A stretch of 64,000 nt of DNA, taken from Gemmatimonadaceae bacterium. GTDB lineage: Bacteria > Gemmatimonadota > Gemmatimonadetes > Gemmatimonadales > Gemmatimonadaceae. Under the pieces are notes generated by a model that saw only the letters and a program-made list of their open reading frames with translations, was not told where the DNA came from and searched no databases. Each line of letters starts with the position of its first letter. The stretch's first letter is position 1. The stretch covers positions 1 to 64,000 of the forward strand of contig DATNEW010000036.1 in assembly GCA_035606695.1 (NCBI GenBank), written 5' to 3'. Shown here piece after piece: positions 35,572 to 52,157 of the stretch. A program made the position numbers and the translations under genes.

Positions 35572-36975
35572 ATGAAGAACCTGATGCAGCGCCCCGCCAA
35601 AGCACACGTCATTCTCGCCGCCGTGTTCGGACTCATCGCTTGCGGCCTCACGGCGTGCGGCGGCGGCGAATCCGTCCCGTCGACGCAACCGACCACGTCA
35701 ACGCCTCCGCCCCCGCCACCGCCGGTCCCGGTCGTGGCTACGGTCACCGTGACCGGTTCAGCCGCGCTCGACGTCGGCAAGACGGCGCAGTTCAGCGCCG
35801 TCGCGAAGGACTCCACGGGCACCGCCATTTCCGGAAAGACCTTCACGTGGTCGAGCGCGAACGACGCCATCGCGAGCGTTGCATCGGATGGCACGGTGAC
35901 CGGAAAGACCGCCGGATCAACGACGATCAGCGCGTCCGTCGACGGCAAGTCCGGATCGGCGGCCGTTACGGTCAACGCTCCGGCACCGGTGGTCGCATCG
36001 ATCTCGATTTCCGGCACCTCCTCGCTGCAGGCCGGCACGACGACACAGCTCACGGCAACGGTCAAGGACGCAAGCGGCGCCGCGATCACGAGCGTTCCCG
36101 TCACGTGGTCGAGCTCCGATGCAACGCTCATCACCGTCTCGAACACCGGGCTCGTGAACGCCGGACACATCGCGAACGTCACCATCACCGCGACGGCCGG
36201 TGGAAAGTCCGCGACGCTCGCCGTCACGAGCTCACTCACGCCATACACCTTCAGCTTCGATCCGGCCACGAGCGCGTCGGATCAGCAGTTGATCAAGGAC
36301 GCCGTGCAATTCGCCGCCGGCTTCTATCAAACGACGTTCGGGCGAACCATCACGACGGCGTCGACCATCTCGACCTCGACGACGTCGGACGGCTGCTCGC
36401 GCGGCGGCTCGGCGGCCTTCACGGGCGCCGGCGCTGTGACGTTCTGTACTTCGAATGCGGGATGGGTGCTGAACGGTCCGATCTCGCGACAGAAGATCAC
36501 GGTGCACGAGGTCTTCCATCTCTGGCAGTTCCAGTACAAGTGGCTCGGGAATCCGAACACCGCGGGGGCTGACTGGCTGATCGAAGGCTCGGCCGAGTTC
36601 ATGGGGTATGACGGCATGGACGCGGAGAAGCTGATTCCGATCGCCACTACGCGCGGCTGCATGGCGAAACAGGTCGCCGACTTCGCGAAGCAGCAGCCGC
36701 CGGGTTTGCCGTCGCTGCCAACGCTCGAGCCGGCGACGGTGCTTCAAACCACGGTCGGTCCGGTGTACCCGTATTCCTGGATCGCGGTCGACGAGCTCAT
36801 TGCGTCGGCGGGAATCGGCTCGCTCAAGGTGTACGCGGACGCGATCGCGTCGGGCACGCCGTGGCAAACGGCGTTTCAGACCGCGTTCGGTACGTCGATC
36901 TCGGCGTTCTACGCGCAATTCCCGGGATATCTCGCGAGCCAGCCGGTGCCGGCGAACTTCCTCTGCGGCGTGTAA
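35572..36975 (+). CDS. Lipoprotein with Ig-like domains and an HExxH protease-like domain
   Basis: The 467-residue protein has a signal peptide with a lipobox (LTACG at about residue 29), then a Pro-rich linker. Two bacterial Ig-like (BIG2) domains follow (VTVTGSAALDVGKTAQFSAV and SISGTSSLQAGTTTQLTATV). The C-terminal 230 residues contain HEVFH at residues 312-316 and WLIEGSAEF with Glu338, a pattern of a gluzincin-type zinc peptidase. It probably sits on the outer membrane facing outward or in the periplasm. It lies on the opposite strand within the str gene group. The substrate is unknown. Confidence 0.8.
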   Translation: MKNLMQRPAKAHVILAAVFGLIACGLTACGGGESVPSTQPTTSTPPPPPPPVPVVATVTVTGSAALDVGKTAQFSAVAKDSTGTAISGKTFTWSSANDAIASVASDGTVTGKTAGSTTISASVDGKSGSAAVTVNAPAPVVASISISGTSSLQAGTTTQLTATVKDASGAAITSVPVTWSSSDATLITVSNTGLVNAGHIANVTITATAGGKSATLAVTSSLTPYTFSFDPATSASDQQLIKDAVQFAAGFYQTTFGRTITTASTISTSTTSDGCSRGGSAAFTGAGAVTFCTSNAGWVLNGPISRQKITVHEVFHLWQFQYKWLGNPNTAGADWLIEGSAEFMGYDGMDAEKLIPIATTRGCMAKQVADFAKQQPPGLPSLPTLEPATVLQTTVGPVYPYSWIAVDELIASAGIGSLKVYADAIASGTPWQTAFQTAFGTSISAFYAQFPGYLASQPVPANFLCGV

Positions 36976-37062: not shown

Positions 37063-37532
37063 TTACCAGCGATAGTGCGCGAACGCCTTGTTCGCGTCCG
37101 CCATGCGGTGCGTGTCTTCCTTCTTCTTCACCGCGTTGCCTTCACCCTTGCTCGCCGCGATCACCTCGGCCGCGAGCTTCTCCGGCATCGACTTCTCGTT
37201 GCGGTCGCGCGAGTAGTTGATCAGCCAGCGCATCGCCAGCGCCGTGCGGCGCTCAGGGCGCACTTCCACCGGCACCTGGTACGTGGCGCCGCCGACACGG
37301 CGGCTCTTCACTTCCACGACCGGCTTCAGATTCGCCAGGGCCTGCTTGAACACGTTCACGCCCGGCTGATTCGTGCGGCTTTCGACCAGGTCCATCGCGC
37401 CGTAGAAGATGCGCTCGGCCGTCGACTTCTTGCCCTGCAGCATCATGGCGTTGATGAACTTTGAAACGGTCTGGCTGTCGTAGCGCGCGTCGGCGAGAAT
37501 CGGACGCTTCACGCTTCCTTTGCGGCGGCTCA

Positions 37533-37533
<1 letters not shown>
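37063..37533 (-). CDS. rpsG: 30S ribosomal protein S7
   Basis: The 156-residue protein begins [20 protein letters not shown] and contains [40 protein letters not shown] and [20 protein letters not shown], standard S7. It nucleates the 30S head. Its start shares one base with the rpsL stop. It is followed by a terminator and not by fusA. Confidence 0.98.
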
Positions 37534-37919
<386 letters not shown>

Positions 37920-37999
37920 GTAGAACGGAAGGAATTCGAACGGGATAGCCCCGTGGATGCACTTCCCGCCTGACCAGAGTGGTCCGGGGGAGACTGGAA

Positions 38000-38028
38000 A
38001 AGGTATCCAATCGCGAGCGGTGCGTCAA
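38000..38028 (-). promoter_or_regulatory. Candidate promoter for rpsL-rpsG
   Basis: On the minus strand TTGACG (38028-38023) and TACCTT (38005-38000) are 17 bp apart, about 80 bp upstream of rpsL. The -10 is weak; seen by eye. Confidence 0.35.
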
Positions 38029-38078
38029 GCTGGCGAGGTCGTAATCCCAGACACGACACCGGGTTGCGATGCCTTGTG

Positions 38079-41000
38079 CTATTGGGACGACTGGCCGGAC
38101 GTCAAAAAGTTGGCGTGCACGGCGTCCACGAGCGAGGCGAGCGTATCCGTCGCGGTCGTGCTCGCCACCGTCGCGAATCGGTCGATCAGCGAACCCATCA
38201 CACCGGCGACGGCGCCACCCGTGTGCAACTGAGACGCGGTCACCGACCCGCCGGCGTCCAGACTGCTCGCGAGGAGGTTCGCGTCGACGGTCAAGCGAGG
38301 GGTCAAACTCGATGCATCGAACTCGATACCTCGCGCGCCCGACGCGTGGATCATCGACAGCACGTCGCCGAGCATGCGTCGCGCGTTGCTCCCGCTCACG
38401 GCCCAGCGCTCGAGCATGGCGTCGAAATTCCCAACCGCCTGCTCGACCCCCACTGCCGCCGCGGAGGAGTTGCTCGCCGGACCCGCGGGCGGCGCGGCCG
38501 AGCCCATCACTCGCGGCATGAGCGCATAGTCCGGAATACCGAGCGCGCCGAGGAGTCCGCTCGAATCGCTCAGCTTGAGCGCGGGCGAACCCGGAGCGGC
38601 GTTGATCTTCACCGCGCCGGTGTCGCTGTCGACCGTCGCCTGGACGCCGCCGATCTGATTCAGCGCACTCACGACGCCGTCGACCGTCGTGCTCGACGGA
38701 TCGATCGCGATGTCGACGCCGTTCACGGTCAACTTCCCCGCGTGCACCTTCGCATATTCCGACATGAGGCCAACGGCCACCGCACTCGGCGACGTCGGAT
38801 CGATGCCCACGACGCTCAGCGGGCTCGCATCCATCTTCGCCGCGGCCACAAAGCCGGATGTGTCCGCGCCGATCGTGATCGGCGACGACGATTTCACTTT
38901 CGCGGTGAGTGAAACAGTTTGCGTCGTTGGGTCGAAGTGTGCCGTCACACCGGCACGCGAGCTCGAGATGCGCGACAGCACGCTGGTCATGCTGTCGTTG
39001 TTTGCGACGGCGATCTGAACGCCATTGACCGTGAACGAACCGGCGTGCACCGATTGGCCGGGGTCGAACATTGGTGCACTGAGCTCCGCGCCGTTGAACA
39101 CCGCGTTCGGGTTGACGTGCGTGCCTGCCGAACCCTGCGCGACATGCAGCGCCGAGAGCAATCCGCTCGTGTCATCGACGATCGACAGCGGCGCGCCGGC
39201 GATGGTGGGCGTGAATGACAGCGTGTCGGTCAACGCGTTGTAGCTCGCCGTCACACCCGCATTCGCGGCAGTGATGCGATTGACGACGTCCTGGAGACTG
39301 TCGGTCGCCGCCGACACGGCGATCTGCTGTCCGTTGAGCGTGAACGCGCCGTCCGTCACGCCGCTGAACTCGGGCGTGCGCGCCAACACCTCGGCGAGGT
39401 CGCTGAGTTTTCCGGCCGCACCGTTCGCGGTCGCGAGACCGGTCGTAGCGAGGAATCCGGTGGTGTCGTTGCCAACGTCGATGAGATCCTGGCCCGGCGT
39501 ACTCCGCACGAGCGTGAGGCGATTGGTGTTTGCGTCGAACGCGGCGGTCACATCGGCACCCGCCGCGTTGAGCCGGCTGACGACCGTCGAGAATGAATCG
39601 GCGTTGGCGTCGACGTTGATCGCGACGCCGTTCACCGTGAACGATCCGCTGGTCACGGACGCGAACTGCGACGTCTTGGCGAGCACTTGTTCGTCGTCGC
39701 GCAGGTTCCCGCGCGCAGTGTTCGCGGCGTCGAGATGGGCATCGGCGAGAAAGCCGGTCGTGTCGTTGCCGACGGCGATCGGATCTTCGCTGTCGCCGGT
39801 CGTCGTCAGCTCGAGGGCGTTGGCCTGCGCGTCGAAGACGGCGCTCACGCCCGCGCCGGCTGCGTTGATTCGTGACACGACGTCGGTAAGTGAATCATTG
39901 GCGGGATCGACGCCGATCGACACGCCATTGATCGTAAACGAGCCGCTCGTGACGTCTCCGAATTGCGTCGTCTTCGCCAGCACCTGCAGGTCGTCGCGGA
40001 TGTTGCCCATGACCGTGTTCGCGGCGTCGACATGCGCGGCCGCGAGGAAGCCGGAGGTATCGCCGCCGATCGGCACGGCGTCCTCGCTGTCGTACGTCGC
40101 GTCGAGACGAAGGCCGTCCGTGACGGGATCGTACGTCGCCGTCACGCGTGCGCCGGAATTGTTGACTTTGTCAACTATCGTCTGAATGGTATCGGTGGCG
40201 GCGTCCACGGTGATCGTTTTTCCATCGACGACGAACGAGCCGTCCACGACCGACGCGAACACCGATACATCCTGGAGCGCCACGCCATCCTCGGCGACAT
40301 GGCCGCGCACCGTGTTCGACGTATCGAGGTATGCGGCGCCCAGGAATCCCGTGGCGTCGGCGCCAACCTGAACCAGTTGTTCGCCATTCAACGTCGCCGT
40401 CAGCCGCAGGCGATCACTCATCGTGTCGTATTCGGCGGTGACGCCCGCGCCGGCGCCGTTGATCCGCGTGATGACGGACGCCAGCGAGTCGGAGCTCGCA
40501 TCGACCGCGATCGCGACGCCGTTGATGGTAAACGAGCCCGTCGACACGGCACCGAACTGCGAGGTTTTCGCGAGCACCTGCTGATCGTCGCGCAGGTTGC
40601 CCTGCACCGTGTTGCTCGAGCTGATCCCCGCGGCAGCGAGAAATCCGGAGGTGTCGCCGCCGATCGCGACGTCGTCTTCGGTCTTGTACGTCGTCGTGAT
40701 GACGATCTTGTTCGTGTTCGTGTCGAACGTCGCCGTCGCGCGGGCTCCGGAGGAATTGATTCGTCCGACGATGTCGTTGACTGAATCCGTCGTCGCGACC
40801 GAGATCGTCCGCCCGTCGATGACGAACGCGCCGTCCACGACCGATGAAAACTGGCTGAGATCGGCGAGCGGCACTCCATCTTCCGACAGATGTCCGGGCA
40901 CCGCGTTGTTCGTGGAGAGATGCAACGCGCTCGAGAGGCCCGTCGAATCACTGACCGCGATCGGATCTTCGGTGTCGTACTTCGTCGTGAGATGCACGAC

Positions 41001-43922
41001 GTCGTTCGCCGCATCGTAGGACGCCGCGACGCCGGCCGACGACGACGTGATGCGCGAGAGAATCGAGCTGATCGTATCCGTCGTCGTGTCGAATGCGATC
41101 GCGGTGCCGTTAATGGTGAACGATCCACTCGTCACACCGGCGAACTGCGGCATCTTCGCGAGGACCTGCTCGTCGTCGCGGATATTGCCGAGCACCGAGT
41201 TGGCCGTGTCCATCTTGGCCGCGGTGAGAAAGCCCGAGGTGTCACCGCCGACGACGATCGGGTCCTCGCTGGTCGTGTTGCCGACGAGATGCAGCGTGTT
41301 CGCGGTCGAGTCGAAACTCGCGGCCACGCCCGCGGCCGACGCATTGATCTTCGCGATCAGCGTGCTGAGTGTGTCGGCGCTCGTATCGACGGCGACGGTC
41401 GCGCCGTTGATCGTGAACGAGCCGCTCACCACCGCGGCGAACTGTGTGGTTTTGTCCAACACCTGCTGGTCGTCGCGAATGTTGCCTTTCACGGTGTTCG
41501 CGGTCGAGAGCTTCGCCGCCGTGACGAAGCCCGACGTGTCGCCGGAGACCGTGATCAGATCTTCGCTGTTCCCGTTGGTCGTCAGAACGATCTTATCCTG
41601 GCCCGAATCGTACGTCGCGGTCACGCCCGCGGCCGACGCGTTGATGCGGCTCACGATCGACGACACGCTGTCGGTATCCGTGTCGACCGAGATCGCCGCG
41701 CCGTTGATGCTGAACGATCCGTTCGTCACTCTCGAGAATTGCGTCGTCTTCGACAACACCTGCAGGTCGTCGCGCACGTTGCCGATCACGGTGACCGACG
41801 TCGTGAGCTTCGTCGCCGCGAGAAAGCCGGAGGTGTCGTTTCCGATCACCACCGGATTCGATCCGCTGTTGTTGACGATGGTGATCTTGTCGTTGGCGAG
41901 CGTGGCGGTCACGCCGGCGGACGACGTATTGATATTGTGCAGCACCGACGTGATCGTGTCGCTGGCCGCGACGTTGATCGTGACGCCGTTGACCGTGAAT
42001 GCGCCCGCGCCGACGGTGTATCCCGGATCCCAGCGCGGCGCTGCGTTGCCGGTAGCATTGAACGCGGCGTTGGCGTTGACGTCGGTGCCGATCGTCTTAC
42101 TGACGGTCGTCGACGCCGTGTCGTTCTGACTGACCGTACCGGCCGAAAACGAGATCGACAGCCCGCTGTCGTTGCCGATCGAGATCTTCTGGCCCGCGAC
42201 GTACGACCCGCTGAAGGAGAACAGCGAGTGCCCTGACTGATCGAGGACCGAGAACTTGAGCGTTTGCGGCGTGCCGCTCAGCCCACCGGCGACCGCGCTT
42301 TGAAATTTAACGGTGAGCGATGTTGCGCTCGCGAACGAATCCGTGCCGGTGTAGGTGCCGGTCAGGCTGGCGACGGTCGTGGAGGATCCGAAGGTCAACG
42401 TGTTCGACGCATACGACGTCGTCGCCGTGTTGATCTCCTGGCTCTGCGACGTGAGCTTCATGGCCGCCAGAAAGCCTGACGTGTCGTTCCCGAGATAAAT
42501 GCTGTCTTCCGAGGGGTCGTTCGATGCCAGCGTCAGCTTCTTCGTCGTCGCGTCGAACGACGCGCTGACGCCGGCGGCCGAGTTGTCGATCGCCGAGATG
42601 ACGGAGGCGATCGTGTCGTTGGCCGCGACGGCGATCGTCGTCCCGTTGATCGTGAACGAGCCGGCGGTCACCTGCGCGGCGTTGTCGAAGCGCGGACGCA
42701 GATTGGGATCGGGGTCGTTGAATTTCGCCGCCGTGTCGATGACAGGCGCGCTGTGACTGACCGCCGACGTACCCGTTTGGCCGTTCGCGAGCGTTCCCGC
42801 CGAGAACGAGATGGACAGACCGATGTCGTCGCCCAGATAGACGCGATCGCCTGCCTTGATGCTGCCCGAATAGTCGAGAAGCTTCGTGGCGCCGTCGAGA
42901 ATCTGGAAATGCACCGTCGACGCGGTGGCGCCGACCGTGGCGGCCGCCATCACCTTCACGGTGAGCGTCGACGTCGTCGCCGCGGTGCCGACGCCGGTGT
43001 ACACACCACTCAACGTCGCCACGCTCGTGCTGGTGCCGAGCGCGACATTCGGAGCATAACTCGTCGTCGCGGTGTTGACGGCGGCGTACGACGTAATGGC
43101 GGACACACGCTGCGGCGTCGTCACGTCGAGACCGAGCGTTCCGCTCGATACGAGCACGGACGACGCTTCCGGCGACGTGATGTCGAGACCAAGGCTCGAC
43201 GAGGAATCGAGCGTGGACGCGCGCTCTGGTGATGTGACATCGAGTCCGACACCGCTCGACGACTGCAACTCGGACGGCGCGTCAGGCGACGTGAGATCGA
43301 GGCCGAGCGCGGACGACGAGAGCTGTGACGCGGTTTCCGGCGACGTGACGTCGAGAAGGAGCGGCTGCGATGACTCGAGCACCGACGCGCGGTCGGGCGA
43401 CGCGAGATCCAGACCGATCGGCGATGATGACGCGAGCGAGGAGGCCGCCGCCGGCGAGGTCGTGTCGAGCGCGAGCGACGCGGACGACGTCAGCGTTGAT
43501 GCCGACGTTGGCGACGTGACGTCGAGCCCGAGCGCAGCCGAGTCGAGCGACGAATACGCCGTGGTCAGATCGAGTCCGAGCGGCGACGAGGAGGCGCGAT
43601 CGGTCGACGTCTGCGTGTTTACCGCCTGCGTCGTCTGAAACGTCGAGTAGGCGCCGCCGACGCCGTCGCGCCGCGCGAGGATGCCGCTCAGCGAGGTGAC
43701 TGGAATCGTGAACGCACGCGATGTCGCGGCGCCTGTCGCGGGGGCGGCGCCGTTGAACGTGCCGAGCGCGTCGACGACGCCCTGCGCCGCCTGCTTGAGC
43801 GCATCGCGCGCCGCCGCTGAGCCAGTTGCCGCGCTCGCCGGGCGCAAGTGCAACGACCCCCTCAGGAATTGCGATCTGAAGGGGTTTCCGGAAGATCCCC
43901 ATGGATTCCACGAATAGCTCAT
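38079..43922 (-). CDS. Giant repeat protein with flagellin_IN-like repeats
   Basis: The 1947-residue protein has no clear signal peptide. Residues of about 110-290 hold nine or ten short units of the type LDVTSPExAS. From about residue 390 to 1760 roughly 13 units of 98-99 residues follow. Each has a core such as SGSFTINGVAIAVDASSDSL, then xVxxRINxxxAGVTAxYD and GNDTSGFLAAxxL, which resembles the flagellin hook IN motif found in FliD and flagellins. The last 180 residues are helical. No flagellar gene is nearby, so a flagellar-cap, surface or adhesin role remains open. Adjacent units such as 3-5 and 9-10 are very alike, implying recent tandem duplication. Confidence 0.8.
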   Translation of the reverse strand: MSYSWNPWGSSGNPFRSQFLRGSLHLRPASAATGSAAARDALKQAAQGVVDALGTFNGAAPATGAATSRAFTIPVTSLSGILARRDGVGGAYSTFQTTQAVNTQTSTDRASSSPLGLDLTTAYSSLDSAALGLDVTSPTSASTLTSSASLALDTTSPAAASSLASSSPIGLDLASPDRASVLESSQPLLLDVTSPETASQLSSSALGLDLTSPDAPSELQSSSGVGLDVTSPERASTLDSSSSLGLDITSPEASSVLVSSGTLGLDVTTPQRVSAITSYAAVNTATTSYAPNVALGTSTSVATLSGVYTGVGTAATTSTLTVKVMAAATVGATASTVHFQILDGATKLLDYSGSIKAGDRVYLGDDIGLSISFSAGTLANGQTGTSAVSHSAPVIDTAAKFNDPDPNLRPRFDNAAQVTAGSFTINGTTIAVAANDTIASVISAIDNSAAGVSASFDATTKKLTLASNDPSEDSIYLGNDTSGFLAAMKLTSQSQEINTATTSYASNTLTFGSSTTVASLTGTYTGTDSFASATSLTVKFQSAVAGGLSGTPQTLKFSVLDQSGHSLFSFSGSYVAGQKISIGNDSGLSISFSAGTVSQNDTASTTVSKTIGTDVNANAAFNATGNAAPRWDPGYTVGAGAFTVNGVTINVAASDTITSVLHNINTSSAGVTATLANDKITIVNNSGSNPVVIGNDTSGFLAATKLTTSVTVIGNVRDDLQVLSKTTQFSRVTNGSFSINGAAISVDTDTDSVSSIVSRINASAAGVTATYDSGQDKIVLTTNGNSEDLITVSGDTSGFVTAAKLSTANTVKGNIRDDQQVLDKTTQFAAVVSGSFTINGATVAVDTSADTLSTLIAKINASAAGVAASFDSTANTLHLVGNTTSEDPIVVGGDTSGFLTAAKMDTANSVLGNIRDDEQVLAKMPQFAGVTSGSFTINGTAIAFDTTTDTISSILSRITSSSAGVAASYDAANDVVHLTTKYDTEDPIAVSDSTGLSSALHLSTNNAVPGHLSEDGVPLADLSQFSSVVDGAFVIDGRTISVATTDSVNDIVGRINSSGARATATFDTNTNKIVITTTYKTEDDVAIGGDTSGFLAAAGISSSNTVQGNLRDDQQVLAKTSQFGAVSTGSFTINGVAIAVDASSDSLASVITRINGAGAGVTAEYDTMSDRLRLTATLNGEQLVQVGADATGFLGAAYLDTSNTVRGHVAEDGVALQDVSVFASVVDGSFVVDGKTITVDAATDTIQTIVDKVNNSGARVTATYDPVTDGLRLDATYDSEDAVPIGGDTSGFLAAAHVDAANTVMGNIRDDLQVLAKTTQFGDVTSGSFTINGVSIGVDPANDSLTDVVSRINAAGAGVSAVFDAQANALELTTTGDSEDPIAVGNDTTGFLADAHLDAANTARGNLRDDEQVLAKTSQFASVTSGSFTVNGVAINVDANADSFSTVVSRLNAAGADVTAAFDANTNRLTLVRSTPGQDLIDVGNDTTGFLATTGLATANGAAGKLSDLAEVLARTPEFSGVTDGAFTLNGQQIAVSAATDSLQDVVNRITAANAGVTASYNALTDTLSFTPTIAGAPLSIVDDTSGLLSALHVAQGSAGTHVNPNAVFNGAELSAPMFDPGQSVHAGSFTVNGVQIAVANNDSMTSVLSRISSSRAGVTAHFDPTTQTVSLTAKVKSSSPITIGADTSGFVAAAKMDASPLSVVGIDPTSPSAVAVGLMSEYAKVHAGKLTVNGVDIAIDPSSTTVDGVVSALNQIGGVQATVDSDTGAVKINAAPGSPALKLSDSSGLLGALGIPDYALMPRVMGSAAPPAGPASNSSAAAVGVEQAVGNFDAMLERWAVSGSNARRMLGDVLSMIHASGARGIEFDASSLTPRLTVDANLLASSLDAGGSVTASQLHTGGAVAGVMGSLIDRFATVASTTATDTLASLVDAVHANFLTSGQSSQ

Positions 43923-44117
43923 AGCCGTTCCTCTTCCTTAGAGAACGGCAGTGAGGCGGCGTGAATTCACACACCGTTAAACTTTGCTCACATCCCTGTA
44001 ATGAAGTGTTACAGCGGCTAAGGTTCCGAAAAACAGCTGCCGCGGACGAACGTCGGACGACCACCGACAGGCACGGAGACGGCGGAACTGCCGTCAACGG
44101 CAGTTCAATGATTGTTT
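43923..44117. other. Intergenic region upstream of the repeat protein
   Basis: It probably contains the promoter of the repeat-protein gene. AT-richer stretches around 43975-44010 (GTTAAACTTTGCTCAC and TGTAATGAAGTGTTA) are candidates. No gene is supported. Confidence 0.4.
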
Positions 44118-44165
44118 AAAAAAGCACCCTCGGAATGCTCCGATTCGCGAAGCATCCCGAGGGTG
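44118..44165 (-). terminator. Rho-independent terminator after the susC-susD-DUF4397 operon
   Basis: On the minus strand CACCCTCGGGATGCT pairs with AGCATTCCGAGGGTG and is followed by TTTTTT. It lies about 100 bp after the DUF4397 stop. Confidence 0.85.
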
Positions 44166-44262
44166 TTGAACAAGTCACGCACCAGCGGTCAACCGCCGTT
44201 GACGCCGTCTCCGTGCCGTTCCGTGAACGTCCGACGTCGGTCCGTGGTCAGCGTTGTTCGTT

Positions 44263-45084
44263 CTACCTGTTCGCCGTGCTCGTCAGCCCCGGCTTGTTCG
44301 CCGTGACGGTGGATTGATAGTCACCACGCGCCGCGACGGAGTACACATGCCCGCCGACGAACGAGACCGCCGTCAGCGACGGCACCGCGACCGTACCCTG
44401 CGTTGCGGACAGATCGTACACACCCGCCGGAACCGCCACGAAGGTGCCGGCCGACTTGTACGCGACGGGACCACCGATCGTCACCGGCGCGCCCGTTGTC
44501 TCGTTGTTGCCGATCAGCACCATCGGCGTTGATCCGGGCAGCGCGTTCACGAGCCGCACGTACGCCAGCGAGTAATCCGAGATGGTCGGAATCGGATCTT
44601 CGACGATGAACGCGTCCGCCTTCTTGGTCGACGTGTTGTACACGCCGGTTTGATAGTACGAGTAGAACTTCGCATCGTCGAGCGTCGCACTCGCCGTCGA
44701 GACGGCGACGCCATGGTCCGTCGTCGCCGCGATCTGGCCGGCGAACGTGTACTGGCCCGGCGCAAGCTCGCTGTACAACGCGCCGTTCGCGGCCGCGTTG
44801 TAGCCGGTGCCTGACGTCGACTCGATGCCCGTCGTCGTGCACAGACGGATCGTCGCCGTGTCGGTCGGCAACGCGGCCTGGCAGACGCCGTTGCTGATCG
44901 CCGTGATCTTCTGCGAGTTCGCATAGAAGTTCACACCCGGCGACGTGACGCCAAAATTGAAGAACCTGATATACGCGCCGGACGTCGGCGACGAGATGTC
45001 CTGCACCCCGTTCTTGTCGCACGCGGCGAGTGCCGCCAGCGAACCAACGCCCAGCAACAGCGCAATGAATCGAGATCTATGCAT
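44263..45084 (-). CDS. DUF4397-domain lipoprotein
   Basis: ATG at 45084 gives 273 residues beginning MHRSRFIALLLGVGSLAALA with ACDKNG after it, a lipoprotein signal (lipobox LAAC). The body has AYIRFFNFGVTSPGVNFYAN, AYVRLVNALPGSTPMVLIGN and AGVYDLSATQGTVAVPSL, two copies of the DUF4397 beta-sandwich repeat. It starts 18 bp after the susD stop and is probably the third gene of that operon. It may be a surface-exposed glycan- or polymer-binding accessory protein, by inference from context. Confidence 0.82.
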   Translation of the reverse strand: MHRSRFIALLLGVGSLAALAACDKNGVQDISSPTSGAYIRFFNFGVTSPGVNFYANSQKITAISNGVCQAALPTDTATIRLCTTTGIESTSGTGYNAAANGALYSELAPGQYTFAGQIAATTDHGVAVSTASATLDDAKFYSYYQTGVYNTSTKKADAFIVEDPIPTISDYSLAYVRLVNALPGSTPMVLIGNNETTGAPVTIGGPVAYKSAGTFVAVPAGVYDLSATQGTVAVPSLTAVSFVGGHVYSVAARGDYQSTVTANKPGLTSTANR

Positions 45085-45101
45085 GATGAGTGAGGCCCGG
45101 A

Positions 45102-46688
45102 TTACGGTTGAGTGATCCACAGCGGCGTCGTGTGATAGTCGAGCGCGAGCGCGCCGATCTTGGACAGACCCGGAACGTTCCAGATGTATTCCGAGTTGAA
45201 GCGCGGACGAATGCGCTGCGCGACCTTGCCGGCGTTGTCAGGATAGAGAATGGTGGTGTTCGGCGGCGTGAAGCCCGGGAACACCTGCGTGCCGCTGGCC
45301 GGATCGATGTCCGTGTAGTGGTAGCGGCGCATGTCCATCCACAGCTCGTTGTGTCCCCATGCCCATTGCGCGATGTACTTCTGCGACATGATCAGCGTGA
45401 GCGTGAGCTTGTTCGGATCCGTCGGCACGATACGCGTGTCGCCGAGGAATGCCGCCTTCTCGGCGCTCGAAATCGGCGTCGCCGACTGCGAGCTGATTTC
45501 GGCGTTGCGCGCGTTCACGAAGTCGATGTGCGCCGAGATGCCGTTCCGATACGCGGTGAGCGCCGTGGCCTTGTCGCCCATGCGATACGCCGCCTCCGCC
45601 TTGACGAACTGCAGCTGCGCGTACGTCATGAACGGAAACTTGTTCTTGTCGTCGAAGATGTAGCGGCTCGACAAACCAGAGCCGGCGGTTCCCGCATAGC
45701 CGAAGAAGTTGAACGGCTGCTGCGCGGTGGGTATGGCGCCATAGCCCGCGACGGTCGGATCGACGCCGCGGAACCTGCCGTCGCTCGACGGCGCGAGCAT
45801 GCGGCTCATGCGCGGATCCACGGCGCCGAAATCGGTGCCGTCCATCAGCTTCACGACGAATTGCGTCTGGCGATAGCTGTTGACGTTTCCGCGATGCGTG
45901 CCCAGGAAGTTGCAGTCCGCGAACGCGGGGTCCTGGCACGGGTACTGGTACACCGCTTCTTCGGCATTGCTCTGGAACGATTGGTCGACGGCCGCGATCA
46001 CGTCCTTCGGGCTGTACGACGCCTTGTTCGAGAAATGGTTGAGCGAGATGGCCTTGAGCCCGTACGCCATCTTCAACCACCGCGTGCGATCGCCATTGAA
46101 CAGGTGGTCGGTCTTGCCGAAGTAGATCGGATCGACCGCACCGTCGGTGCGTTGCAGATCCTTGATCGACAGGTCGATGAGACGCGCGACTTCGCTGTAC
46201 GCGTACTCCTGCGTGTCGTAGTCGAACGTCGAGCGCGTCGGGTCCATCGCTTCCTTGATGATGATGTCACCGTGCAGATCGGTGAGCACCAACCAGCCCC
46301 ACGCCTTCATGAAGTAGCCCGCGCCGGCGATGTCCCAGCGCTGCTCGGCTTCAGCCTTGTTGATCATGTCGACGAGATTCTGGCCGAGCGACCAGTACAC
46401 GTCGCGCCACTGCTCGGCGCCGTTGTCGGAGCTCGGGTCGTAGCCCATGCGGTCCCACGTGCTGATGGCCGTCTGGCCATTGGCGAGAAACCACTGCTGC
46501 GTATAGCGGCCGACGAATCGTCCGTCGAATTCGGGCGCCGTCACCATCCAGTGTTCCATCGGCGACAAGTACAAGTTCGCGCCGACGGCCTGCGGTGCGT
46601 TCGGATTGGTGTTGACGTCCAGAAAATCCTTGCAGCTCGCGGTCACGGCAACGGCGGCCAGTGCGAGCGCGATACCAAGTCGTTTCAT
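45102..46688 (-). CDS. SusD/RagB-family outer-membrane lipoprotein
   Basis: ATG at 46688 gives 528 residues beginning MKRLGIALALAAVAVTASCK, a lipoprotein signal; an alternative ATG at 46733 adds 15 residues. The sequence then reads DFLDVNTNPNAPQAVGANLY, the usual SusD start. TPR-like segments such as QGYFMKAW-type AGAGYFMKAWGWLVLTDLHG and AEAAYRMGDKATALTAYRNG follow, and RRYHYTDIDP near the end. SusD caps the SusC channel and binds nutrient ligands. The substrate here is not evident: no hydrolase is adjacent. Confidence 0.93.
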   Translation of the reverse strand: MKRLGIALALAAVAVTASCKDFLDVNTNPNAPQAVGANLYLSPMEHWMVTAPEFDGRFVGRYTQQWFLANGQTAISTWDRMGYDPSSDNGAEQWRDVYWSLGQNLVDMINKAEAEQRWDIAGAGYFMKAWGWLVLTDLHGDIIIKEAMDPTRSTFDYDTQEYAYSEVARLIDLSIKDLQRTDGAVDPIYFGKTDHLFNGDRTRWLKMAYGLKAISLNHFSNKASYSPKDVIAAVDQSFQSNAEEAVYQYPCQDPAFADCNFLGTHRGNVNSYRQTQFVVKLMDGTDFGAVDPRMSRMLAPSSDGRFRGVDPTVAGYGAIPTAQQPFNFFGYAGTAGSGLSSRYIFDDKNKFPFMTYAQLQFVKAEAAYRMGDKATALTAYRNGISAHIDFVNARNAEISSQSATPISSAEKAAFLGDTRIVPTDPNKLTLTLIMSQKYIAQWAWGHNELWMDMRRYHYTDIDPASGTQVFPGFTPPNTTILYPDNAGKVAQRIRPRFNSEYIWNVPGLSKIGALALDYHTTPLWITQP

Positions 46689-46735
46689 CGACTTCTCGGT
46701 CAGCGATGTGATGGAGTGTGTTTTCGTATGCATGA

Positions 46736-49700
46736 TCAGAAGCCCACGCGAAGGCCGACGTTGATCGCGCGCGGAATCGGGAAGTTGGCGTAGTCGATAC
46801 CGACGCCGCCCGAGCCGCCGGACGCCGCGTCGGTCCCGTTGGCGATCGGGTCGAGCCCCTTGTAGTTCGTGAACATGAGGAGATCGGTGGCCGTCATGAA
46901 CACGCTCGCGCTGCGCGCATACTTGGTCTGCGGGAGATCGTAGGTGAGCGACACGTCGCGCAGGCGGAGCCAATTGATGTTGCGCTCGATGAAGAGCTCC
47001 TCACTCATGCCGGTGTAGTAGTTCGTGTTGAGCGAGGGCACGACGACGATCGTGTTCTGCGTCGGAGTGGCCGTGTTCTCCTTGCCGTCGCGGATCACGC
47101 CCTTGATGATGCGCGGCGTGTTGCGGTCGAGCGTTTCCGTCGACAGACCGCGGGTCGTGAGATAATGCTCGGTGGCGTTGAAGACGTCGCCGCCGCGGCG
47201 GATGTCGAACAGGAACTCCAGTCCCCACTGCTTGTAGTGGACGTTGTTCTGGAGACCGATCGTGAAGTTCGGCTGGCGATCGTAGCCCTGCACGACGGTG
47301 TTGCCATGCGAATCGACGCACTTCGCGTCGGCGAACACGCTCGTCTTGATCGGCAGGCCGCTCGTCGGATCGATGAGGAGCTGACAATCCTTGTTGCGCG
47401 CGTAGAACAAGCCGGTGAACGACATCGTGGACAGGCCGGGCTCTGTACCCGCGCGCACGTTGCCGTACAGCCACGTATCGGAGTTGTACGATTCCGGCAG
47501 TGAGTTCGGCAGCGAGACCGTCTTGCCGCGCGCGAGCGTGAAGTTGGTGGTGAAGTCCCACGAGAAGTGGCTCTTCAACACCGGCGTAGCGCGCAACGTC
47601 GCCTCGACGCCGTGATTCTGGGTCGTGGCGCCATTCAGGTTGAACAGGATGAAGCCCGTGGCATAGCTCTCACGGATGTTCTGAACGATCTGATTCTCGG
47701 TGCGCTTGCGGTACGTCGTGATATCGAGGCCGAGGCGATCGTTGAGCCAGCCGAACTCGCCGCCGATCTCGTACGACTTCGCGAACTCCGGCTTGAGGGC
47801 CGGGTTTGGACCGTAGAAGCCGTAGCCGTAGCCGCCGAACGACGTCGTCTTCGATTCGAGCGTGGTCGCGTACGAATACGGCGCGGCATCACGGCCCACC
47901 TCGGCGAACGCCGCGCGGAGCTTGCCCGAACCGAAGAAGCGCTTCGTCGCCGGAAACGCGTCGGTGAACACGAAGCTCGACGAGACAGAAGGATAGAAGA
48001 ACGAGTTCGCGTTCTTCGGCATCGTCGACGTCCAGTCGTTGCGGCCGCTGGCCGTCAGATAGAAGTAGTCGCGGAAGCCGAGTGACGCCTGGCCGAACCC
48101 GCTGACGACACGACGCTGCGTGATGATCGTCCGGCTGTACTTCGTTCCCGTGTTGTTGATCGAGACGAAGTTCGGATCGAGGAACTGGGTGCCCTCCGAG
48201 CCGTCGACCGTCGACTTCTGGTCCTGAATTTCATTGCCGACGAGGCCGTGGATCGTGAACCCCTTGCCGAGCGAGATGTCGTTCACGTTGAACAACGTCT
48301 GTCCCGTGAGATTGCGCGTGACGTTGTCGTTGATGTCCAGAATGCCGTTCTGCGTGAACGCCATGGCGCTTTCCGGATTGCGCAATTCCTGGTTCTGCGT
48401 CGTGAACGCATCGACGCCGATGTTGCTCTTGAGATAGCCCCACGAGAACGGCGTGATCGTGAACGCCGCGTTGGTGAACAGGCGATTCGTGCGATCGTTC
48501 TTCTTGTTCTTGTTGGCGCTGAAGTACGGATTATCGAGCTCGGAGCCGGCGCCGACCGTCGTGATGCGCTGGCGGAGGCCCGCGGGCGTCAGCCAGTTCT
48601 GCGCGTTATTTGTATCGGGCCATGCCAAAAGACCGATGAGTGGACCGTCATCGCCCTTGTAGGGCTGATCGTTGTTCTCGTACGCGTACATCATCGAGAT
48701 GTCACTCGAGAGCCACGACGTCGCCTGACCCTGGCCAGCCGCCGTAACGTTGACCTTGTTGAGCATCGAATTCGGCACGACGCCGCGCGCCCGCGTGAAC
48801 GCCGACGACAAGCGATAGTTGAGCCGATTCTCCGCCGCACCGCCGCTGAACGACAGGTTGTGCTTCTGCGTCACGCCCGTCTGGAAGAAGTTCGAGACGT
48901 TGTTGTAGAACGTCGTGCCCGAGGGGTACGGGGCGCCGAAGTAGCAGAGCGTGGCCAACGCCGTCGAGATCGGGTTGCAGGTGCTGTTCGGGCCGTAGAC
49001 GTCCTGTACATCCGGTTTCGCACGTACCTGGTCGAAGCGAAGCGAGTTGTTGTAATCGAACTGGCCGCCGTTCGAGCCGCGCTTCGTCGTGATGACGATG
49101 GCACCGTTCGCCGCGTCGATGCCGTACAGCGCCGCCGCCTCGGGACCCTTCAACACCGTGATCGACTCGATGTCTTCCGGGTTGATGTCGGCCGCGCGAT
49201 TCGTGAAGTCGACGTTGCGATTATTGAATGCCAGCGCCGACGTCGGCGCGTCGGACGCCAGGTTCGCGGTGTTCGTCGTCGAGTTGTCCAGCGGCAGCCC
49301 GTCGACGATCATCAGCGGCTGGTTCGAGCTCGAGATCGAGCTGATGCCGCGAATGGTGATGACGCTCGACGCGCCGGGAATGCCCGAAGTGCTCGTGACG
49401 TCCACCCCGGCGACTCGGCCCTGCAGCGCGTTCACGAAATTCTCGCGCTGCGTCTGGGCGATCGGCGCACCGGAGACGGTCTGCTGCGCGGTGCCCAGCG
49501 CGCGCTGCGATGCCGTCTGGCCGAACGCCGTCACGACGATGGCGTCCAGGTTCGTCGCGACCTTGCGCAGCTGCACGTTGACGACGTCCGCACTGCCCAC
49601 GGTGCGCTCTTCCGGCGCGGTACCGATGAGACGGTATTGCAGCACCTGCCCGACGGCGGCGCGAATGGAATAGTTGCCTTGATCGTTGGTGGTGGTGCCG

Positions 49701-49849
49701 CTCGTCGTTCCCTTGATGACGACGGATACACTGGAGAGTGGCGTACCAACCTCACTCGTCACCTTGCCGGTCACCGTTTTCTGCTGCGCGAACGCGGCCG
49801 CAGGAAACAGGAATAGTCCGAGCAAGACCGTGAGTACTCGTTTCTTCAT
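46736..49849 (-). CDS. SusC/RagA-family TonB-dependent outer-membrane transporter
   Basis: The 1037-residue protein has a signal peptide (to FAQ), a carboxypeptidase-like domain (residues 24-100), a TonB-box-like DAIVVTAFG near residue 105, a plug (ALQGRVAGVDVTSTSGIPGA and ESITVLKGPEAAALYG) and a long C-terminal barrel ending in Phe (NVGLRVGF). It imports large solutes across the outer membrane using TonB energy. It precedes susD by about 47 bp and starts the operon. Many Asn and aromatic residues in the barrel are normal for the family. Confidence 0.95.
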   Translation of the reverse strand: MKKRVLTVLLGLFLFPAAAFAQQKTVTGKVTSEVGTPLSSVSVVIKGTTSGTTTNDQGNYSIRAAVGQVLQYRLIGTAPEERTVGSADVVNVQLRKVATNLDAIVVTAFGQTASQRALGTAQQTVSGAPIAQTQRENFVNALQGRVAGVDVTSTSGIPGASSVITIRGISSISSSNQPLMIVDGLPLDNSTTNTANLASDAPTSALAFNNRNVDFTNRAADINPEDIESITVLKGPEAAALYGIDAANGAIVITTKRGSNGGQFDYNNSLRFDQVRAKPDVQDVYGPNSTCNPISTALATLCYFGAPYPSGTTFYNNVSNFFQTGVTQKHNLSFSGGAAENRLNYRLSSAFTRARGVVPNSMLNKVNVTAAGQGQATSWLSSDISMMYAYENNDQPYKGDDGPLIGLLAWPDTNNAQNWLTPAGLRQRITTVGAGSELDNPYFSANKNKKNDRTNRLFTNAAFTITPFSWGYLKSNIGVDAFTTQNQELRNPESAMAFTQNGILDINDNVTRNLTGQTLFNVNDISLGKGFTIHGLVGNEIQDQKSTVDGSEGTQFLDPNFVSINNTGTKYSRTIITQRRVVSGFGQASLGFRDYFYLTASGRNDWTSTMPKNANSFFYPSVSSSFVFTDAFPATKRFFGSGKLRAAFAEVGRDAAPYSYATTLESKTTSFGGYGYGFYGPNPALKPEFAKSYEIGGEFGWLNDRLGLDITTYRKRTENQIVQNIRESYATGFILFNLNGATTQNHGVEATLRATPVLKSHFSWDFTTNFTLARGKTVSLPNSLPESYNSDTWLYGNVRAGTEPGLSTMSFTGLFYARNKDCQLLIDPTSGLPIKTSVFADAKCVDSHGNTVVQGYDRQPNFTIGLQNNVHYKQWGLEFLFDIRRGGDVFNATEHYLTTRGLSTETLDRNTPRIIKGVIRDGKENTATPTQNTIVVVPSLNTNYYTGMSEELFIERNINWLRLRDVSLTYDLPQTKYARSASVFMTATDLLMFTNYKGLDPIANGTDAASGGSGGVGIDYANFPIPRAINVGLRVGF

Positions 49850-50122
49850 GATGAGTTGTACCAGGTGGTGGTGGACCGCGAGCCGAGCTCCGCGCGCCCG
49901 ATCGCGTTCGATCGGACCGAGGGCGCGCCAATGAGCAAATCCTCACTAGCAAACGCTCATGGGCGCACCGGAGTAGGCTCGGTGCGCCGCATGGATTCTC
50001 AACGCCTTCCGCTGGGAATGTCCGCCTCGTCGCGGTTCGTTATGATGGCGTATCGAGGCGGTACAAGCTAGGTCACGATTATAGTTGACTCATCAACAAA
50101 GAAAGCGTCAGCAAAGGATTCG
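49850..50122. promoter_or_regulatory. Leader and candidate promoter/operator of the susC operon
   Basis: On the minus strand TATAAT (50083-50078) is preceded by the palindrome GTTGATGAGTCAAC (50097-50084). It lies about 230 bp upstream of susC. The palindrome could be a regulator site or part of a -35 region. The remainder shows no gene. Confidence 0.3.
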
Positions 50123-51547
50123 TCAGCGAATTCCCGCGACCGACGGCGCCGGCAGCGCATCGCGCACACGCACCGCGTGCTCGAACGGACCGAGCAAATG
50201 CGCGATGCTGTTCGCGTAGTAGCTCACCAGCTCCCGGCTTCGCGGCAACACCGCGTAGCCGTCCCCTGATTGCGCCAACACGCGCCGCATGCGCAGCATC
50301 CGCCACGCGCGATCGAACGTCGCCGCGATTCCCTCATCGTACCGCACCACCCGCCCATTCAATTCGCGAAGCGCATCGCTCATCTCGGCCATCCGTTCGA
50401 GCAGCGCATCGCGGGGAATGAAGTCGCGATCGAAGCTCTGAATCGCCGCGCACGCCAGCGGCACGGGCGTGACCGGCACGAGCAGACCGATGCGTGACAT
50501 GACGTCGTCGCACAACGACTGCACGCGTGCCAGCCGTTCTGGTTTCGCCAACTCGAAGAGGTCGGGATTGGAGGCGAGCCACGGCGCGACGCCGATCGGC
50601 GCGCCAACCGTTACCGCCGCACGGCCGTATCGCTTCCATCGCCGCGCAATGAGCCGTGCGAGATTCCACCAGACATAGCGCGCGACTTCGCCGAGCTGAG
50701 CAGCGCGCGACGGACGCGCCCTGCCCTCGCGCGACGCCAGCTCGCGCAAGAGCGAGCGATCCTCGAGGACGCGATCGTAGTTGACCGCGACCGGCACAAT
50801 GAAGATGCGCGACCGGTATCCTGGATCGCGCGCGATGCCGAGCACGTAGTCGAGCAACCCGATCTTGGGCGGCTTGAGCATGCCGTCGCGCGTCAGGCCG
50901 CCTTCGAGGAAGATCCCCTGTGTTACGCCTTCGCGCGTGATGAGCTGGACGTATCGTTCGAGGACGGCGTGGTACAGCGGCTCGCGATATCGCCGCCGCA
51001 CGAAATACGAACCAAACGCCTTGAAGATGTGCTCCAGCGGAAACGCGCGCGCCCATTCGCCGACCGCGTACGAGATCGCCACCTGCCCGGCGAGCGCGTA
51101 ACTCACGAGGACGTAGTCGGCGTTGCTGCGGTGGTTCATCAGGTAGACGATCACGGAATCACGCGGCAGCCGCCCGATCGCGCCGCGGTCCTCGTGCTCG
51201 ACCGTCACCTTGTAGAAGAGGTTCAGAATCTTTTCGGCGACGCGATATCCTATATGGTAGTAGGCGACGACGTTGAAGAACGGCACGATCTCGTGCACGT
51301 ACTGGTCGACGCGCCGCCACGCGGCGGTTTCAGAGACGTCGTTGGCCGCGGCATAGGCACGCACCGCGTCGCCGATCGAAGCGTCGGCAAGCAGCCGGTC
51401 TCGGACGGATTTGCGGCTGGCGAGCTTGAATCGGTCGACGCGCGCGCGAAATCGGAGCAGCGCCTTTCGGCCCGCTCGGCGGGCGTACCAGGTGCCGAAG
51501 ATGGCGGCTGCGAACAGCGCGCCGAGGAGGACGATCCAGGTTCGCAC
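50123..51547 (-). CDS. PlsB-like 1-acyl-glycerol-3-phosphate-pathway acyltransferase
   Basis: The 474-residue protein has an N-terminal membrane helix (MRTWIVLLGALFAAAIFGTW). Acyltransferase motifs follow: NHRSNADYVL (HX4D catalytic pair), GSYFVRRRYREPLYHAVL, IFLEGGLTRDG and VPVAVNYDRVLE. This pattern fits glycerol-3-phosphate 1-O-acyltransferase of the PlsB/GPAT group, which starts phospholipid synthesis, although it is shorter than E. coli PlsB (about 800 residues). A related dihydroxyacetone-phosphate acyltransferase is possible. It is a single gene facing the susC leader. Confidence 0.82.
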   Translation of the reverse strand: MRTWIVLLGALFAAAIFGTWYARRAGRKALLRFRARVDRFKLASRKSVRDRLLADASIGDAVRAYAAANDVSETAAWRRVDQYVHEIVPFFNVVAYYHIGYRVAEKILNLFYKVTVEHEDRGAIGRLPRDSVIVYLMNHRSNADYVLVSYALAGQVAISYAVGEWARAFPLEHIFKAFGSYFVRRRYREPLYHAVLERYVQLITREGVTQGIFLEGGLTRDGMLKPPKIGLLDYVLGIARDPGYRSRIFIVPVAVNYDRVLEDRSLLRELASREGRARPSRAAQLGEVARYVWWNLARLIARRWKRYGRAAVTVGAPIGVAPWLASNPDLFELAKPERLARVQSLCDDVMSRIGLLVPVTPVPLACAAIQSFDRDFIPRDALLERMAEMSDALRELNGRVVRYDEGIAATFDRAWRMLRMRRVLAQSGDGYAVLPRSRELVSYYANSIAHLLGPFEHAVRVRDALPAPSVAGIR

Positions 51548-51593
51548 GGAGCGAGCATTGCCCAGTCACGGACCGCCGTCAAGGCCGGATCGG

Positions 51594-52157
51594 TCAATCG
51601 AACTCGTGGATCGGACCGAAGTCCTCGCGCAGGAAAACTTGGATCGTGTACTGCATCGTCTCCCAGCGAAGGTCAGGTTCTTCGTAGCCCCGCTTCCACG
51701 CGTCGGCTTTGCGCTCTTCTTCGAGCTCGTCGACCCACGCGTTGAAATCCGCCTCAAACTCCTCGAGCCGTTCGCGCTCTTCGGGGTCGAGATCCGGATC
51801 GTCGAGCGGATCGTAATCGTCCGCCGTCTCCGGCCACTCGAGGAAGCCGTCGTAAATGCGCATGAACGCACAGGGAAACAGATCGCCGTTCTCGTCGCGC
51901 AGCTCGAGGTTGAGGGCCTCGCGGCGAACACGCGCGTCCTCGAATTCGGCGCCATGCTCATCGTCGGGATCCGGATCGCGGAAGGGACGACTTGGCCGGC
52001 GCGCGCACACCGCGTGCACTCCTGTCGCGTCGAGGAGCGCCTGTCGGCCCTCTTCGGCCGGCTCGACGAAGCCCATCCGCAAGTTTTCGTTGATGCATTC
52101 GACGTCGAGCTCCGTGTGCCCGACGAGCGTGCCGTTGCTCCAAATGCTGTAGCGCAT
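51594..52157 (-). CDS. Acidic protein of unknown function
   Basis: ATG at 52157 follows a GGAGATCAGACG ribosome-binding stretch and gives 187 residues beginning MRYSIWSNGTLVGHTELDVE. The middle is acidic (ETADDYDPLDDPDLDPEERE) and the end reads RWETMQYTIQVFLREDFGPI. No membrane segment or known domain is seen. The earlier in-frame start at 52307 lies in the repeat-rich spacer and is rejected. Confidence 0.7.
   Translation of the reverse strand: MRYSIWSNGTLVGHTELDVECINENLRMGFVEPAEEGRQALLDATGVHAVCARRPSRPFRDPDPDDEHGAEFEDARVRREALNLELRDENGDLFPCAFMRIYDGFLEWPETADDYDPLDDPDLDPEERERLEEFEADFNAWVDELEEERKADAWKRGYEEPDLRWETMQYTIQVFLREDFGPIHEFD

Follow-up and report, generated by a model that had tools for sequence, protein, structure and literature searches.

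The gene for P0001 was located on the minus strand of the window analysed here, a 64,000-nucleotide stretch of a contig from a Gemmatimonadaceae bacterium. It is flanked by rpsL/rpsG on one side and by a DUF4397-SusD-SusC group on the other, with rpoC and rpoB nearby. The gene begins with an ATG codon preceded by a AGGAAGAGG-like site and encodes a protein of 1947 residues that contains no cysteine. The features of the locus are listed below, with the parts of the protein given from its N-terminus to its C-terminus.

38079..43922, minus strand: P0001 coding sequence (open reading frame, Pfam)
43581..43922, minus strand: N-terminal region, residues 1-114, predicted to be mostly disordered, with a single helix at residues 36-54
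43077..43580, minus strand: nine tandem 19-residue LDxTSP linker units, residues about 115-282, with a DNA period of 57 nt
42747..43076, minus strand: beta-sandwich module A1, residues 283-392, FlgL/FlgK D2-like
42447..42671, minus strand: IN unit 1, residues 418-492
42099..42434, minus strand: beta-sandwich module A2 (second copy), residues 497-608
41802..42014, minus strand: IN unit 2, residues 637-707
39123..41756, minus strand: nine-unit array of 98-99-residue IN units (units 3-11), residues about 723-1600
38823..39050, minus strand: IN unit 12, residues 1625-1700
38523..38747, minus strand: IN unit 13, residues 1726-1800, the most diverged unit
38127..38480, minus strand: FliD_C-like helical C-terminal region, residues 1815-1932, shortened, with the FliD terminal coiled coil mostly absent
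38030..44263, no strand: species-specific 6.2-kb segment, whose flanks nearly adjoin in congeners
44115..44166, minus strand: hairpin followed by a T run, resembling an intrinsic terminator, upstream of the P0001 gene

The earlier note on this DNA had described a 1947-residue frame with about 13 flagellin_IN-like repeats, an array of 98-99-residue units and a separate run of LDVTSPExAS units near the N-terminus, and all of these were recovered. Thirteen IN units were counted by pattern and alignment, starting at residues 418, 637, 732, 831, 930, 1028, 1126, 1225, 1324, 1423, 1522, 1625 and 1726, while Pfam separates 10 stretches that match PF07196 individually; nine of the 13 units have the 98-99-residue spacing, and the LDxTSP run was modelled by AlphaFold with very low confidence, possibly indicating disorder. 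The flagellin_IN assignment proved right by sequence, with the whole protein matching PF07196 at 3e-47 (159 bits against a gathering score of 22.7) and being the sole match to this family in its own genome at E<=0.001. The IN units were predicted by AlphaFold to fold as beta-beta-alpha-beta-beta with a core pLDDT of about 80-90, and FliD made up most of the top Foldseek matches, none of them significant (best E 0.047); a fold unrelated to flagellin_IN, which the earlier note had named as the result that would speak against it, was not seen in the predicted units. The IN unit thus predicted resembles the beta-grasp domain described in FliD, FlgL and FlgK (PMC1949818) and probably corresponds to it, whereas P0001 differs in carrying 13 within one chain. 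The arrangement between units was predicted with low confidence (pTM 0.26 and 0.28). Pairwise identity was 26-59% between IN cores, 30-60% between whole array units and 48-66% at the DNA level, so that the units are not near-identical as had been suggested, and a change of unit number through recombination between such units is unsupported because the units are diverged; in addition, the gene was found in no congener.

For the beta-sandwich modules, FlgL and FlgK topped the Foldseek list obtained with module A (E 0.04-0.15), with probabilities of 0.92 for 5zj0 and 0.85 for 7c7z at E 0.12-0.15. A profile of the family module also picked up a FlgK (L070, E 2.7e-11), while hhalign found no match between module A and three FlgLs, for which the template alignment was poor. 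The D2 domain of xcFlgL is a beta-sandwich resembling FlgK D2 (PMC6155364), and it is this domain of FlgK/FlgL (HAP1/HAP3; 5ZIZ/5ZJ0, 7C7Z, 4UT1) that the predicted fold of module A resembles, although P0001 shows no FlgK/FlgL-type termini. No match to flagellin- or rod-type terminal domains was found in P0001 with Pfam. An assignment of P0001 as a flagellin was rejected, with Flagellin_N and Flagellin_C unmatched and the Flagellin_N matches of its own genome lying elsewhere; the protein is like the giant flagellins, whose outer domains are repeated (PMC6248924), in being a very large flagellar-type protein grown by domain duplication, but no flagellin termini were matched in it.

The C-terminal region of 11 members of the P0001 family (described below) matched that of 22 FliDs in hhalign with an E of 4e-7, a probability of 93% and a score of 53.6, compared with decoy scores of 16.4 (reversed), at most 15.3 (column-shuffled) and at most 24.6 (block-shuffled). 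P0001 and the 1104-residue member L032 alone gave an E of 1e-4 at the corresponding FliD position. The family remained below the cut-off of the Pfam FliD_C model (L032 E 0.013), and the profile-profile match spans just part of FliD_C; the AlphaFold model of the P0001 C-terminus has low confidence (block means 25-47). The chains stop about 30-40 residues past the FliD_C-like core, and most of the C-terminal coiled coil (D0) of FliD is missing. At the other end, no Pfam match to FliD_N was found in the P0001 N-terminus, and the hhalign score was only 19.5. P0001 shares with FliD (HAP2, the filament cap; PF07196, PF07195) the order in which IN domains precede a helical region, which in P0001 is probably FliD_C-like, but differs from it in having no detectable FliD_N and little of the terminal coiled coil, and in adding an FlgL-type beta-sandwich, an LDxTSP linker and 13 IN units. 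A C-terminal peptide of the form G-x-x-G-hydrophobic-x-hydrophobic-S was common to six members (L026, L027, L085, L086, L088 and L089) and was not present in P0001 or L032.

A contig scan with P0001 alone returned no relative, and PDB sequence searches returned nothing useful, while an alignment of the two module copies did detect relatives, which belong to Gammaproteobacteria, Acidimicrobiia, a planctomycete, a myxobacterium and one further bacterium. A seven-row profile then matched 14 of 379 Myxococcota genomes, among which members were accepted on inspection in G754, G714, G836, G845, G771, G840 (partial), G407 and G561. In total, about 14 other members were observed in Myxococcota, Gammaproteobacteria, Planctomycetota and Acidimicrobiia, mostly of 480-810 residues, lengths that are approximate because they were counted from stop to stop; the L028 member is cut by a contig end, and L029 was assigned by tblastn alone, with no clean single frame inspected. 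Candidates rejected as members were L033 (a flagellar FlgK/FlgL locus) and four weak profile matches, namely L071 and L073 (FlgL-like frames of 2269-2286 residues in the Myxococcota genomes G641 and G684), L072 (apparently a phage tail-sheath protein) and L074 (a FliD).

The members have a common layout of an N-terminal helix, one LDxTSP-like unit, a beta-sandwich, IN domains and a C-terminal helical domain, and the beta-sandwich was not evident in one of them (G771, L089). The enlarged forms are L032, with a few LDxTSP units before the sandwich, and P0001, with nine linker units, two sandwiches and 13 IN units, compared with about one LDxTSP unit in the other members. Neither FliD_N, a signal peptide nor cysteine was detected in the family; 11 members with about 8,800 residues have no cysteine past the start, as do most of the FliDs studied here. 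In P0001, no hydrophobic signal-peptide-like stretch was found in the N-terminus and no strongly hydrophobic membrane segment was seen in the chain, and residues 1-114 are a candidate export signal. No description of the family was found in Pfam, NCBIfam and PHROGs or in a search of the open-access literature. Within that scope the family is apparently undescribed, and P0001 appears to be an expanded member of this hook-associated-protein-like (HAP-like) family with FlgK/FlgL-D2 sandwiches, FliD-type IN domains and a shortened FliD_C-like end.

Flagellar genes accompanied the family in all genomes tested. A separate FliD was present in 14 of 14 member genomes (seven Myxococcota, six others and the P0001 genome), and FlhA likewise in 14 of 14. 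Within Myxococcota, FliD was found in 7/7 genomes with a member and 12/36 without (Fisher p=0.0016), and FlhA in 7/7 and 9/20 (p=0.013), values that ignore shared ancestry among few and partly related genomes; FliD is the more specific marker, as FHIPEP also covers the export gates of injectisomes. The members had been identified without using FliD or FlhA, and the FliD matches of their genomes lie elsewhere. From the sequences surveyed, the family appears rare and sporadic, and seen so far only where flagellar genes are also present. The members of G401 and G402, both gammaproteobacterial and of one order, lie at flagellar clusters: in G402 about 8 kb beyond flhA on the fliD contig, after genes for flhF, a fliA-like sigma factor, DUF2802 and GGDEF proteins, and in G401 on the contig that also carries fliD, at a distance of about 38 kb from it, adjoining a glycosyltransferase gene. 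The other members, including P0001, showed no visible linkage to flagellar genes.

One rival reading would make P0001 a second FliD or FlgL, serving as cap or junction protein on the filaments of a subset of flagella. Its FliD_C-like C-terminus, IN units and D2-like domains are what such a protein would carry, but we consider this quite improbable given the undetected FliD_N, the largely missing terminal coiled coil, the FliD that each tested member genome encodes separately, and a linker of about 170 residues with 13 IN units. A role as the cap proper is in particular unlikely, since FliD_N was not detected, most of the terminal coiled coil is missing and a normal FliD is present. The earlier proposal of a new filament, cap or surface fibre pointed to the right neighbourhood.

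A survey of flagellar genes in the genome, which the earlier note had recommended, revealed a cluster encoding FliC, an FlgL-like protein, FliD, rod/hook proteins and FlhA on a separate contig, C50; the earlier remark that flagellar genes are not nearby is true of the annotated part of the window but not genome-wide. The flagellar promoter consensus of this genome is TCAAGTC-N12/13-GMCGATA. Sigma28-like sites (TCAAGTC or TAAAG, a spacer and GMCGATAC) were observed on the minus strand of L016 at 14089, 12572 and 6472, where they precede the FlgL-like gene, FliC and one more gene of this genome. Upstream of P0001, the search for a sigma28-type site gave a best score of 10/16, which roughly one in three random stretches attains, and the terminator-like hairpin there suggests a separate transcription unit.

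The flanks of the 38030-44263 segment are about 1 bp apart in the congener G002 and about 117 bp apart in G005, and G004 also lacks the P0001 gene. Either a gain in the P0001 species or losses in the congeners would explain this, and a gain is favoured because a search of 98 relatives with P0001 yielded only a FliD, and one of 395 genomes of the phylum with residues 1-708 yielded a single short match (G162), although short members may have escaped as both searches used P0001 itself. The single match among the 98 relatives, in G026, was rejected as a family member, being the FliD of that genome. A plasmid search gave no match. Restriction to one species and absence of the segment from congeners would also be expected of a non-functional or cryptic gene that had arrived by horizontal transfer and was retained by chance, but this is very improbable in view of the intact 1947-codon frame, a GC3 of 0.84 similar to that of adjacent genes, and the IN consensus retained in diverged units.

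The explanation we hold to be rather likely is that the P0001 family forms a non-capping, HAP-like beaded fibre and that the flagellar type III system exports it. Flagellar export is suggested by the lack of a signal-peptide-like stretch and of cysteine, the HAP-type domains and the co-occurrence with flagellar genes, although missing cysteine and signal peptide would also fit other export routes. The protein would use no Sec signal but pass through the flagellar type III apparatus, and outside the cell its small domains, each folded independently, would line up as a string of 15 beads with a flexible LDxTSP linker. Its helical ends would attach the string to or near the hook-filament junction, the filament or the tip, where it may offer an extended, flexible surface that serves adhesion or spacing, and the FliD cap would not be replaced. 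Domain make-up, family membership, co-occurrence with flagellar genes, clustering with them in two genomes and the species-specific segment are observed here; we infer export, location and the adhesion or spacing role, and a flexible beaded fibre would be the simplest physical reading. Weighing against this explanation are the distance of the P0001 gene and most other members from flagellar genes, the lack of a recognisable sigma28-type site, the undetected FliD_N, the low-confidence model of the C-terminus, Foldseek E-values of 0.04 or worse, and a co-occurrence based on few, partly related genomes.

A surface or secreted adhesin or fibre that recruited flagellar IN and D2-like domains, with secretion and anchoring independent of the flagellum, would agree with the isolated locus between rpsL and the SusC/SusD group, the lack of a sigma28-like site, the terminator-like hairpin ahead of the gene and the sporadic distribution of the family. 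We regard it as unlikely, since neither a signal peptide nor a strongly hydrophobic membrane segment was seen in P0001, its C-terminus is FliD_C-like, FlhA and FliD occur in every member genome tested, and the members of G401 and G402 lie at flagellar clusters. Few axial proteins are known beyond the hook, namely FlgK, FlgL, flagellin and FliD. If the flagellar beaded fibre is correct, this rare but widely scattered family would add an accessory component to the flagellum and show how HAP domains, re-used without their capping parts, are recombined into long fibres, while every tested member genome keeps a normal FliD. More tentatively, and with doubt prevailing, the family may represent one more class among the extracellular proteins of the flagellum, made up of beaded fibres that derive from HAPs, do not cap the filament and are sporadic across phyla, and whose length would change as linker, sandwich and IN modules are gained.

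At the edge of the species-specific segment, a 58-nt imperfect inverted repeat surrounds the terminator-like hairpin (44027-44260), with an extremely stable predicted fold (z -12.2) and no match in Rfam; the flagellar cluster contains a palindromic stretch related to it (L017 18737-18854), and the repeat is possibly a dispersed palindromic element. The rpoC-rpsL interval (window 37500-52000; L157-L161) varies within the genus and family: some congeners carry its SusC/SusD and GPAT genes, which were not seen in G003 or G006. A neighbouring gene on the plus strand (35572-36975) encodes bacterial Ig-like domains (Big_2).
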